From Richelia sp. SL_2_1 (GTDB lineage Bacteria > Cyanobacteriota > Cyanobacteriia > Cyanobacteriales > Nostocaceae), in assembly GCA_012033205.1 (NCBI GenBank), contig JAAUSO010000064.1:1-34995 (forward strand): a stretch of DNA of 34,995 nucleotides. The letters are read 5' to 3'. Each line of letters opens with the position of its first letter. Position 1 is the stretch's first letter. A program made the translations under genes and the position numbers. Shown here one piece after another: positions 184 to 28,403 of this stretch. The notes under the pieces are model-generated. The model was not told where the DNA came from, did no database searches, and worked only from the letters and a program-made list of their open reading frames with translations.

Positions 184-1839
184 ATGGAGTTAAGCGTGAA
201 GCAGTTTTTTAAGCAAGGAATTCGTTATTCCAAGCTGTTAGCAGGAGGTTTGCTTGGGTTTAGCATTTTTAGTAGTCTACTTTGTCTTCCCTTGTTCGCG
301 GCTTCTTTGCCAAAATCTACTTCTCAAAGTTTAGAGGTTAAAGGTGAAAGGTTAAAGGTTAGAGGTCAAAGGTTAGAGGTTAAAGGTGAAAGTAAACCGC
401 GCATCAAAGAATTAAACGTTGTAAATTATCCCCCCATCTCCTCTTCTCGACTACTAGCTCAGCAAATTTCCGTAGACGAACTATCAGATGTCAAACCAAC
501 GGATTGGGCTTATCAAGCTTTAAAATCATTAATAGAAAAATATGGTGTAATTACTGGTTTACCTGATGGTACTTTTAAGGGCGAACGCGCTTTAAGTCGT
601 GATGAATTTGCTGCTGGTTTAGCTGCTACTTTATATCAGGTGGAAGAAACTATTGCTACAACAATTACTAGTAAATATATTGAGCAAGATAGAATAACTT
701 TACGACGGTTGCAAAAAGAATTTGGTGAAGCTTTACAGGAACTACGAACGCGGTTAGATGATATAGAGTCTCGTTCTTCGCAGTTACAAGCAAATCAATT
801 TTCTACTACTACTAAGTTACAAGGACAGCAAATTGTCGCTGTGACGGATGGTAGAAATGCTAATTTTAGTGCGGTTTCTCGGACTCGATTAACTTTTTCA
901 ACTAGTTTTAGTCAAAAAGATTTACTAGTTACTCAGTTGGAGTCTGGAAATAACGGTGGTGATGCTGTTGGTTTGGCTCAAAAGGAAGATTTGAATTTAT
1001 TGGGAAGTAATGGTACTTTTGCCAATGCTGGAGGACTTGATTTTACTGATGTTGAAGATGATGTCAAACTCAGACGTTTATACTATACTTTACGTCCTTC
1101 CACGGATTTAGCGGTGACGGTGGGAACGAAAATGTCGCCGCGAGATTTTATCGACAGTAATCGCTATGCAAATAATGAAGCGGCTGATTTTAGTTCGGGA
1201 ATTTTCCTGAATAATCCTTTGATTGTCCAAAATAAAATTGATCGCAATGGTGGTGCTGGTGCTGCTGTTGTTTGGAAACCTCAAAATAGTAAACTAACTT
1301 TTCGTTCGCTTTATATTGCTGGGGATGCAAATTCAAACTCCGATGACAACGGCTTTTTCGGCGACCCACGCCAAGCAAGTGCTGAGCTAGAATATATTTT
1401 GAGCGATAAACTTACTGTAAAACTCCAATATACTAACGCCGAAATTGACGATACTGATATTAACGCTTATGGCTTAAACGCCGAATACGTACTTAATCGC
1501 AATACAGGCATTTTTGGTCGTTTGGGAATCGGTAATTATCAAGGATTTAATACCGCAACTGGTCAAGATTTAGATTTAAATCCTGTTAGCTGGACTCTTG
1601 GGGTTGGTTTGCGTAACATTGGGATTCCCGGTACCATTGCAGGTGTAGCAATTGGTCAGCCATTTGTTAGCGATGGTTTAGGAAATGCAACCCAAACTAA
1701 TTTTGAAACATTTTATAATCTACAACTCAGCGATAATATTAGCGTTACTCCGATTATTTCTTTGGTAATTAATCCAGATAACGACAGCAATCAAGGTACT
1801 ATTTGGCAAACTACGTTCAGGACGGTGTTTTCATTTTAG
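184..1839 (+). CDS. SLH-domain outer-membrane porin (iron uptake porin / OprB-like)
   Basis: Cyanobacterial outer-membrane porin of the SLH + OprB type, a class linked to uptake of inorganic ions including iron. Residue numbers here count from the GTG at 181, which directly precedes the ATG at 184; the two starts cannot be separated by eye. A signal peptide with a hydrophobic stretch covers residues 20-42. An S-layer homology domain follows at about 97-155 (DVKPTDWAYQAL, GLPDGTF, SRDEFA), which should anchor the protein to the peptidoglycan-linked polymer. A short coiled coil lies at 165-205, and a beta-strand-rich barrel runs to the C-terminal Phe (RTVFSF), a typical BAM insertion signal. 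Oddity: residues 51-71 are three 7-residue repeats (LEVKGER, LKVRGQR, LEVKGES) encoded by an STRR array between signal peptide and SLH domain. The family is clear; the solute is not. Confidence 0.87.
   Translation: MELSVKQFFKQGIRYSKLLAGGLLGFSIFSSLLCLPLFAASLPKSTSQSLEVKGERLKVRGQRLEVKGESKPRIKELNVVNYPPISSSRLLAQQISVDELSDVKPTDWAYQALKSLIEKYGVITGLPDGTFKGERALSRDEFAAGLAATLYQVEETIATTITSKYIEQDRITLRRLQKEFGEALQELRTRLDDIESRSSQLQANQFSTTTKLQGQQIVAVTDGRNANFSAVSRTRLTFSTSFSQKDLLVTQLESGNNGGDAVGLAQKEDLNLLGSNGTFANAGGLDFTDVEDDVKLRRLYYTLRPSTDLAVTVGTKMSPRDFIDSNRYANNEAADFSSGIFLNNPLIVQNKIDRNGGAGAAVVWKPQNSKLTFRSLYIAGDANSNSDDNGFFGDPRQASAELEYILSDKLTVKLQYTNAEIDDTDINAYGLNAEYVLNRNTGIFGRLGIGNYQGFNTATGQDLDLNPVSWTLGVGLRNIGIPGTIAGVAIGQPFVSDGLGNATQTNFETFYNLQLSDNISVTPIISLVINPDNDSNQGTIWQTTFRTVFSF
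333..388. repeat. STRR array inside the porin coding sequence
   Basis: Eight consecutive heptamers of the form A(A/G)AGGT(T/G/C), with degenerate units on both sides. They lie within the porin gene and encode residues 51-71. The same heptamer in opposite orientation (AACCTTT) forms the array at 26634-26694 between nusB and ftsY. Three 7-base units equal seven codons, so the array reads as a 7-residue protein repeat. Confidence 0.85.
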
Positions 1840-8093: not shown

Positions 8094-8193
8094 AGACGTA
8101 GCACTGCTACGTCTCCATCAGGGTTTTGCTACGTCTCCATCAGGGTTTTGCTACGTCTCCATCAGGGTTTCGCTACGTCTCCATCAGGGTTTC
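8093..8193. repeat. GAGACG palindrome extended into a 22-bp tandem repeat
   Basis: A palindrome of the GAGACG family (8093-8115) is followed by repeats of its right arm plus a spacer. Four 22-base units (GCTACGTCTCCATCAGGGTT plus TT or TC) occupy 8106-8127, 8128-8149, 8150-8171 and 8172-8193. Units 1-2 end in T and units 3-4 in C. There are no unique spacers, so this is not a CRISPR. Confidence 0.9.
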
Positions 8194-8539
8194 GCTGACA
8201 AAACAAATTAATTCCTTGCTCAAATCCAATACGCAAAAATTTTTTACTTTAAAAAACTGATCGCATTTGATTAAATTATCGTCGGAAATTAAAATACGGG
8301 GAGACGTAGCAGTGCTACGTCTCTACAGAATTACTGCTTTATCAGTTGGATAATACATGGTAGGGAAATCCGAATCACTTGTATAGGGCAAACAATCCAG
8401 AAAATCAAGTGCAGTTTATCTACTGAAACATTTAAAATCCAAATTGATAATAACCCTGCTTTGCTTTCCGCTAAAGTGGGGTGTTGGGATTTATTTCCCA
8501 ATTAGTGATTAAAATATCTGTATTTGCTGCGACTAAATT
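8194..8539. other. Spacer upstream of htpG, one palindrome
   Basis: No coding potential seen. It holds a palindrome of the GAGACG family at 8301-8323 (arms GAGACGTAGCA and TGCTACGTCTC). The remaining AT-rich 200 bases before htpG must contain its promoter, but I cannot assign -35/-10 boxes with confidence and see no CIRCE element. Confidence 0.6.
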
Positions 8540-26708: not shown

Positions 26709-28403
26709 ATGGTTTTTAATTGGTTCCGCCGTCAAAATAACAAATCTTCTGATACTTCTTCCGAACAGAAGCAAGAGCAAACTGCTGTTGAAAAAGAAGT
26801 AAGTACAGAATCAACCGAAACGCAAACTCCAGAATCTCCTCCAGCAGAAGCGACTGATTTGTTAGCGTTTGCGAAAGCTGCTTATAAAAATATTCAGGAA
26901 AAGCAGCAAACAACTGCTTCAATTGAGCAATCTACATCTGAAATAACTATTGAAGATGAAGAGGTTTCTGAATCTCCCCAAGAAGTAACTGAAATAGTTA
27001 CCCAATCTCAAGAAGTAACTGAATCTCCCCAAGAAGTAACTGAAACTGTTATAAAATCTGAGGAAGTCACAGAATCTCCCCAAGAACTAACTCAAACTGT
27101 TACCGAATCTGAAGAAGTTGTAGAAGAAACTATTGCAACTAATAGTTCAGCGGTAGAAACATCAGATGCAGATGCTACAGGGCAAGATATAGTATCTGAA
27201 GTAGAAACAGAAGATGTATCCAAACCAACAGCACCTGCTAATTTATCTTTCTTGGAAAGAGCGGCTTTAGAACGAGAAGCTAAGCAGGAAAGACTTATTG
27301 CTAGTGCCATCGATATAGAAAATTCACGGATAGAATCAACCGGAACAGTAGCTGATAATACTAATCAAGACCTTGAGCAAATACCGGAACTGGCATTTGA
27401 TGAAGGATTTTTATGGTCAACAGAAGTTCTTGCAGCGCAAGGTAGACGTGCGGAAGATGTTTCGATTGAAGAAATTACTTGGCTACAAAAATTACGACAA
27501 GGTTTAGATAAAACTCGTCGTAGTTTAATTAACCAGCTTAAAGCAATTGTCGGTAAAGGACCACTGAATGCCAGTGCAGTAGAAGAAATTGAAGCTTTAT
27601 TGCTGCAAGCCGATGTCGGTGTGGAAGCTACAGATTTCATTATTAATTCTTTGCAGGAAAAATTGCGCCAAGAAGCTTTACCACCAGAAGAAGGTATTGC
27701 ATATCTTAAAAAAATTCTGCGGGATATTTTGGATAAACCGCTGCAAGAATCCTCAAAATTTGCTTCCTTTACTCCGGAAAAAGAAACTTTTAATATTTGG
27801 TTGATGACTGGGGTGAATGGTGCTGGTAAAACTACTACTATCGGTAAAATTGCTCATTTAGCAAATAAATCTGGTTACAAATGCTTGATTGGTGCAGCAG
27901 ATACCTTCCGCGCAGCCGCAGTACAGCAGGTTAAGGTTTGGGGAGAAAGAAGCGGAGTTGAAGTGATTGCGAATCCAGGGAAAAATACAGATCCAGCCGC
28001 AGTTGTCTTTGACGCTATCGCTGCAGCTCAGTCGCGAGAAACCGAGTTATTACTAGTAGATACCGCAGGTAGATTACAGAACAAGAAAAATTTAATGGAG
28101 GAATTAAGTAAAATCCGGCGAATTATCAATAAAAAAGCTCCTGATGCCAAAGTAGAATCACTGTTGGTTCTAGACGCTACATTAGGTCAAAATGGATTGC
28201 GACAAGCGGAGGTTTTTTCGCAAGCTGCTGAACTTAGCGGTGTAGTTTTAACCAAGCTAGATGGAACTGCTAAAGGAGGGGTTGCTCTAGCGGTAGTACA
28301 ACAGTTAGGTTTACCCATTCGCTTTATCGGTGCTGGTGAAGGTATTGAAGATTTACGTCCTTTTTCTAGCTACGAGTTTGTAGAAGCGTTGCTTAGTGGT
28401 TGA
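26709..28403 (+). CDS. ftsY: Signal recognition particle receptor FtsY
   Basis: SRP receptor GTPase that docks Ffh-ribosome complexes at the membrane for co-translational insertion. The N-terminal A domain (residues 1 to about 235) is acidic and of low complexity. It contains imperfect repeats of EVTESPQEVTETV at about 84-140. The N domain helices follow (LRQGLDKTRRSLINQL), then the G domain: P-loop GVNGAGKTT at 368-376, the ADTFRAAAVQQ block, DTAGR at 451-455, TKLDG at 515-519 and closing FIGAGEGIEDLRPF. All GTPase motifs are intact. ATG 26709 lies 15 bases after a heptamer array, with no clear Shine-Dalgarno. At 564 residues it is long compared with E. coli (497), through the acidic domain. 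Confidence 0.95.
   Translation: MVFNWFRRQNNKSSDTSSEQKQEQTAVEKEVSTESTETQTPESPPAEATDLLAFAKAAYKNIQEKQQTTASIEQSTSEITIEDEEVSESPQEVTEIVTQSQEVTESPQEVTETVIKSEEVTESPQELTQTVTESEEVVEETIATNSSAVETSDADATGQDIVSEVETEDVSKPTAPANLSFLERAALEREAKQERLIASAIDIENSRIESTGTVADNTNQDLEQIPELAFDEGFLWSTEVLAAQGRRAEDVSIEEITWLQKLRQGLDKTRRSLINQLKAIVGKGPLNASAVEEIEALLLQADVGVEATDFIINSLQEKLRQEALPPEEGIAYLKKILRDILDKPLQESSKFASFTPEKETFNIWLMTGVNGAGKTTTIGKIAHLANKSGYKCLIGAADTFRAAAVQQVKVWGERSGVEVIANPGKNTDPAAVVFDAIAAAQSRETELLLVDTAGRLQNKKNLMEELSKIRRIINKKAPDAKVESLLVLDATLGQNGLRQAEVFSQAAELSGVVLTKLDGTAKGGVALAVVQQLGLPIRFIGAGEGIEDLRPFSSYEFVEALLSG

Follow-up and report, generated by a model that had tools for sequence, protein, structure and literature searches.

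Porin gene at the contig edge and its layout

The window, the stretch of 34,995 nucleotides of Richelia sp. SL_2_1 analyzed here, starts at base 1 of its contig, and its gene at 181 to 1839 encodes a porin in which a tandem array of 7-nt units is read in frame. The features of this locus, all on the forward strand, are as follows:

1 to 84, +, array of TAGGAGT heptamers next to the contig end, ahead of the porin gene and separate from the coding repeat (Tandem Repeats Finder score, 126)
181 to 1839, +, porin gene (552 amino acids if started at GTG 181; candidate starts GTG 181, ATG 184, and GTG 196)
196 to 303, +, putative signal peptide, upstream of the heptamer array (judged by eye)
331 to 393, +, nine-unit heptamer array, 63 nt, codons and residues 51 to 71 (sequence and Tandem Repeats Finder)
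430 to 448, +, C-rich stretch (CCCCCCATCTCC...), perhaps left over from the CCCCATCT-type repeats found there in relatives (by eye)
484 to 612, +, SLH domain, residues 102 to 144 (Pfam PF00395, E value of 7.6e-7)
688 to 1836, +, OprB-family porin domain, residues 170 to 552 (Pfam PF04966, E value of 2.1e-18)

The SLH and OprB Pfam models both score above cut-off in the same protein; its secretion was read from the sequence by eye. A structure model of modest quality (mean of 61, pTM of 0.52, built from 20 sequences) predicts a helix at residues 182 to 205, followed by barrel strands. Of 888 structure matches to this model, the 50 listed include general porins and OmpM1 of Veillonella, and a profile search of solved structures retrieved four distinct sequences, namely, three SLH proteins (8by/8bz entries) and SlpA. 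The order of SLH domain, helix, and barrel is the same as in the available descriptions of OprB-type cyanobacterial porins and of Veillonella OmpM1 (PDB 8bym and 8bys). Among the SLH-anchored porins compared, this gene and those of some congeners are the only ones with heptamers ahead of the SLH domain. A plasmid search returned distant porins only (7 records, 60 to 80% identity).

From position 331, the array reads TTAGAGG, TTAAAGG, TGAAAGG, TTAAAGG, TTAGAGG, TCAAAGG, TTAGAGG, TTAAAGG, and TGAAAGT, that is, eight exact TNARAGG units and a ninth with a final T. The original prediction had described eight heptamers at 333 to 388; their presence is borne out, and their extent and count are corrected here. 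Its reading of in-frame heptamers within the coding sequence as LEVKGER, LKVRGQR, and LEVKGES was recovered unchanged at codons 51 to 71, as was the position of the array between the putative signal peptide and the SLH domain. At its best, with a 21-nt period, the array scores 106 in Tandem Repeats Finder. None of 300 dinucleotide shuffles of nucleotides 181 to 480 reached this value, the top shuffle scoring 50, and the array is beyond chance.

All plausible starts lie upstream of the array. Besides the codons at 181, 184, and 196, in-frame TTG codons occur at 250, 292, and 307, and a GGAG at 186 to 189 is, by eye, well spaced for the start at GTG 196. In the congener G004, a TAG directly follows ATG GAG, so the start of that gene must be further on and is probably the GTG that matches window position 196. 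Between codons 43 and 154 of the porin there is no in-frame ATG, GTG, or TTG, and codon 154, the next candidate, lies past the SLH domain. A start behind the array would therefore cost the protein both its signal peptide and its SLH domain, and this possibility, which the original prediction had named as one that would overturn it, was rejected. Judged from the reading frame, any gene model that retains the SLH domain also includes the array in its coding sequence.

The array lies in a variable tail ahead of the SLH domain

Residues 1 to 95 of the model have pLDDT values below 50 and are predicted to be disordered. Of 20 aligned rows, 17 reach the N terminus, and the 3 lacking it were excluded. 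In these 17 rows, no position from residue 42 to residue 90 has a majority residue shared by at least 70%, versus 14 of residues 1 to 41, and the mean majority fraction is 0.31 in the tail versus 0.78 in the porin domain. The number of TNARAGG units in the tail is eight in G000, five in G002, three in G006, two in G007, and zero in G004, in G005, and in the cut copy of G001. The tails of G006 and G007 carry their few heptamers next to a 9-nt C-rich repeat, and the repeats in those of G004 and G005 are all of other kinds. None of 18 orthologues from outside the genus has more than one TNARAGG unit in its tail. Alignment and model together thus describe the repeat as a variable, free N-terminal tail that precedes the SLH domain. 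The array had also been proposed to change the length of a linker. It does not sit between folded domains, and because it precedes the SLH domain in a free tail, its length would leave the distance between SLH domain and barrel unchanged; a role in setting tether length was rejected on this ground.

Units of the family are dispersed, and their order in the porin avoids stops

The three-unit pattern of TNARAGG has 865 forward and 946 reverse matches in the 7.55-Mb genome (1,811 in total, with overlaps, so that the number of arrays is lower), whereas a reversed control pattern has none in the same genome. The 7-nt units of one family therefore occur genome-wide, as is characteristic of the dispersed heptamer repeats (STRRs) of cyanobacteria. 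A peptide search of the same genome with the residues of the repeat gave 210 matches. Among the approximately 150 listed, which do not include an array in an RND gene that was found later, the porin is the only stop-free match in a long frame besides C30 (310 amino acids), a C-terminal run-on at a contig end.

The units TTAAAGG and TTAGAGG each contain a stop in one phase of three. In the porin, the units that fall in this stop-prone phase are TGAAAGG, TCAAAGG, and TGAAAGT, and the remaining six all have T at the second base. Every third unit thus carries G or C exactly where T would give an in-frame stop. Among 389 units from 47 sampled runs, counting that of the porin, T occupies the second position in 290 units, C in 94, A in 3, and G in 2. 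When 88 overlapping nine-unit windows from the two samples described below were pooled, open frames numbered 12 of 264 in the sense direction and 0 of 264 in the antisense direction, and only 3 of the 252 orders of the porin's own second bases are open in its frame. The same stop-free picture would arise from an open founder that later underwent duplication in 21-nt blocks.

In-frame arrays occur in several unrelated genes

Period-7 arrays were surveyed in two samples of the genome. Sample one (the window and 20 further stretches, 416,222 bases, partly picked for repeat matches; ORFs of at least 100 amino acids) contained 183 arrays, 16 of them at least 90% within ORFs, at an ORF cover of 76.6%. 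Sample two (20 stretches, 400,000 bases, picked blind to repeats on contigs known from earlier matches; mechanical ORFs) contained 113, with 11 at least 90% within ORFs and a cover of 76.3%. Period-7 arrays are depleted from ORFs and, like STRRs, generally lie mostly outside coding sequence.

Those within ORFs were sorted by judgement. The 16 of sample one comprise four internal insertions (porin, RND, PiT, and an ABC permease-ATPase fusion) and 12 arrays at ORF or contig ends or in ordinary coding sequence. The 11 of sample two comprise three internal insertions with Pfam matches across them (L206, L210 at 7411, and L217), four cases of ordinary coding sequence (L207, L209, L210 at 5055, and L215), and four with doubtful starts or ORFs (L211, L216, and two in L219). 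Besides the porin, the genes with internal in-frame insertions of this or other heptamer families are RND, the ABC fusion, CobN, DUF5682, and PhnI; the short array in PiT is a weaker case. With these seven genes, an in-frame repeat is found in several unrelated genes, as in the palindromic elements of Rickettsia. In CobN and PhnI (L210:7378-7490 and L217:580-674), an octamer array (GGGGACAA) adjoins an AATTCCC/AATTACC heptamer array, also in frame, as if the two repeats traveled or formed together.

In-frame arrays at three loci differ in length between species by multiples of three units

Of 24 porin orthologues found, a contig end interrupts 2. The remaining 22, from one genome per species, are all in frame: each is open, has a start-like codon, and continues from its N terminus into the SLH domain. 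The closest relative with a complete copy is G002, at 94% identity. The proposed comparison of array length among relatives, made here at the level of species, gave six units in G002 versus nine in the window, a difference of exactly 21 nt for which one 21-nt gap and one synonymous change suffice. This three-unit step agrees with the original prediction that the frame is kept only when the number of units changes by three. An orthologue with the same residues but without the nucleotide repeat, which would have spoken against it, was not found among the orthologues; G002 keeps both. The C-rich stretch behind the array is longer in G002, and 118 codons rather than 114 precede the SLH anchor there, making the whole tail four residues longer. 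The contig of G001 begins within the porin tail (L014), where the array is unreadable, and G003 gave no porin match at an E value of 1e-80.

Two further arrays show the same kind of step. The heptamers in a loop of RND number nine in the window's genome versus three in G001 (−42 nt), and the CobN array is 21 nt shorter in G002. For CobN in G001, the heptamer part compares as 11 versus 8 units, and roughly 12 nt are missing next to it (by eye); the value of −13 obtained for this pair arises from an anchor inside the neighboring octamer array.

Of the period-7 arrays anchored in stretches of G001 and G002, 270 had flanks and yielded 79 comparisons (15 in ORFs, 61 outside, and 3 unsorted). With tight anchors (within 25 nt), 23 of 30 arrays outside ORFs had changed in length. 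The change was a multiple of 7 in 16 of these, including one indel that was counted twice, and a multiple of 21 in 3 of the 16. Within ORFs, 5 of 8 had changed, by −21 (porin), −42 (RND), −21 (CobN), and +7 and −7 (both in L219). The two L219 rows were set aside after the result had been seen, as the likely start of that gene (MTPQLL...) follows both arrays. The one-sided Fisher P value for multiples of 21 within versus outside ORFs is 0.021 without L219 and 0.115 with it, or 0.025 and 0.131 once the double-counted indel is removed; this contrast rests on three gene loci. Changes within ORFs at looser anchors were −42 (RND in G002), +9, +93, −24, −13, −89, and +9 nt.

Different repeats occupy the same protein sites in congeners

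Turnover was compared across the genus at five genes (RND, PiT, CobN, DUF5682, and the ABC fusion; PhnI was left out), and other short repeats often occupy the same protein position in the congeners. Some congeners show weak traces only, or the same repeat, as in PiT of G001. In RND, all seven congeners give stop-free matches over the whole or almost the whole length. Their loops contain segments of SKVKGQ type, of GDKETR type, or mixed ones, and in G002 and G007 the traces are only weak. In CobN, a single place carries segments resembling octamers or heptamers in all seven, in differing mixtures. For PiT, anchors were initially placed in five of seven congeners (G001, G002, G004, G005, and G006) and, after loosening, in G007, with G003 not anchored; the site is nearly the same in G001 as in the window's genome and differs in the other anchored congeners. 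DUF5682 has octamer- or heptamer-like segments at the site in G004 to G007, is split over two contigs in G001, and has no match in G002. Anchoring needs both flanks in one frame, so that a frameshifted copy would appear as missing and not as broken.

The linker of the ABC fusion carries a heptamer array (L173:2395-2469), and G002 (L186) has a longer, mostly unrelated insert; six other matches tested (50 to 58% identical) gave no anchors. In G003, the frame of DUF5682 (L254 and L252) ends just after the repeat site, possibly through a real break or a draft error. Palindrome-like elements, recognized by eye, occur in frame among the tandem repeats of PiT in G006 (L202) and of the porin in G004 (L018), at the same protein sites.

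Interpretation of the repeat-coded tail

The reading that we favor, with a probability of roughly 0.8, is that a dispersed heptamer repeat in the porin has persisted as a disordered N-terminal tail of the mature protein that is neutral or close to neutral, with selection filtering its frame and its stops, and that the same process operates at a few other tolerant sites in the genus. Dispersed repeats would enter, or grow at, tolerant positions of proteins, and purifying selection would act as a filter that lets only stop-free orders of units and length changes of three units (21 nt) survive. The array would by now be a harmless tail. Over time, different dispersed repeats (heptamers, GGGGACAA-type and CCCCATCT-type octamers, and palindrome-like elements) would replace or join one another. 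We infer that the tail lacks a selected function, and the repeats presumably come by copying or insertion rather than by growth on the spot from a seed.

The array had also been proposed as a switch, and outer-membrane porins are a gene type known for phase variation. Slippage by 7 nt could then turn the porin on and off at random, as in a contingency locus, and the non-triplet unit does break the frame: all 18 of 18 modeled gains or losses of one unit truncate the protein, with stops at codons 56 to 76. The array is, however, impure and has no long run of identical units. None of its 8 neighboring pairs are identical, versus 142 of 342 pairs in the sampled arrays (porin run included). The intact frames of all uncut orthologues and the 21-nt step to G002, the sole difference in array length seen, likewise argue against a switch, and such arrays also lie in the genes for CobN, PhnI, RND, and PiT, where switching is no obvious theme. 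We regard switching of the porin as very unlikely, conceivable in principle and unsupported here. A tail with a selected role, for instance, a charged periplasmic tail tuned in three-unit steps, would fit its being kept open, the difference of a whole 7-residue repeat, and the similar short stretch kept in G006 and G007 (KGQSLEV and KGQSLKV). The unrelated tails of G004 and G005, the failure of any of residues 42 to 90 to reach 70% identity across the 17 full-length rows, and the position of the repeat outside the SLH-barrel connection speak against such a role and make it unlikely.

That the repeat is not truly in the gene, or is not translated, is the least credible of these alternatives. 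The genome is a draft of 359 contigs, in which units may be miscounted; several repeat matches lie at contig ends, and the contig of G001 breaks just at the porin tail. Yet the arrangement recurs, with six units, in the independent genome G002, and past the array the first possible start is codon 154.

Relation to known repeats

TAACTGA heptamers have been described in ORFs of Beggiatoaceae and cyanobacteria, where they are dispersed and mostly intergenic, and those within ORFs are limited by their own stop codons and lie mostly at the periphery of the protein (MacGregor 2015, PMC4679880). The porin array resembles them in consisting of dispersed heptamers, some of which are coding, and differs in heptamer sequence. 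The available text of that paper does not describe three-unit length steps, filtering of stops by unit order, or exchange of repeats at one protein site. The palindromic elements of Rickettsia described by Ogata and co-workers are about 150 bp long, lie in frame in unrelated genes, and are translated as extra segments (reviewed in PMC10969869). By these accounts, they differ from the 63-nt tandem array, which is not a palindromic element, and from the inserts seen here, which are mostly short tandem heptamers or octamers of changing copy number. Tandem arrays dispersed in filamentous cyanobacteria sometimes lie inside a functional gene, there one for an RNA, whereas the present gene encodes a protein and imposes a frame constraint. 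The unit of those arrays is a heptamer. Within the limits of the literature search, no description was found of coding heptamer repeats that change by three units at a time.

Whether the genus as a whole has fixed protein positions that serve as landing sites for unrelated dispersed repeats, with turnover between species, a stop-filtered order of units, and heptamer copy numbers that change in threes, we consider an even bet. If true, short tandem repeats would be a standing source of new protein segments. If the pattern holds genus-wide, the 21-nt rule (7 × 3) together with the stop filter would be a countable signature of selection on translated repeats, and the repeats would be a natural experiment on which protein sites tolerate insertions. 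Cyanobacterial proteins rich in repeats would also contain species-specific segments, which annotation and structure prediction should not take for domains.

Two other repeats were noted in the window. Positions 26957 to 27118 hold a 51-nt repeat within the ORF at 26709 to 28403 (Tandem Repeats Finder score, 219), which looks like an ordinary protein repeat, and positions 8105 to 8196 hold four nearly perfect 22-nt repeats (score, 170).
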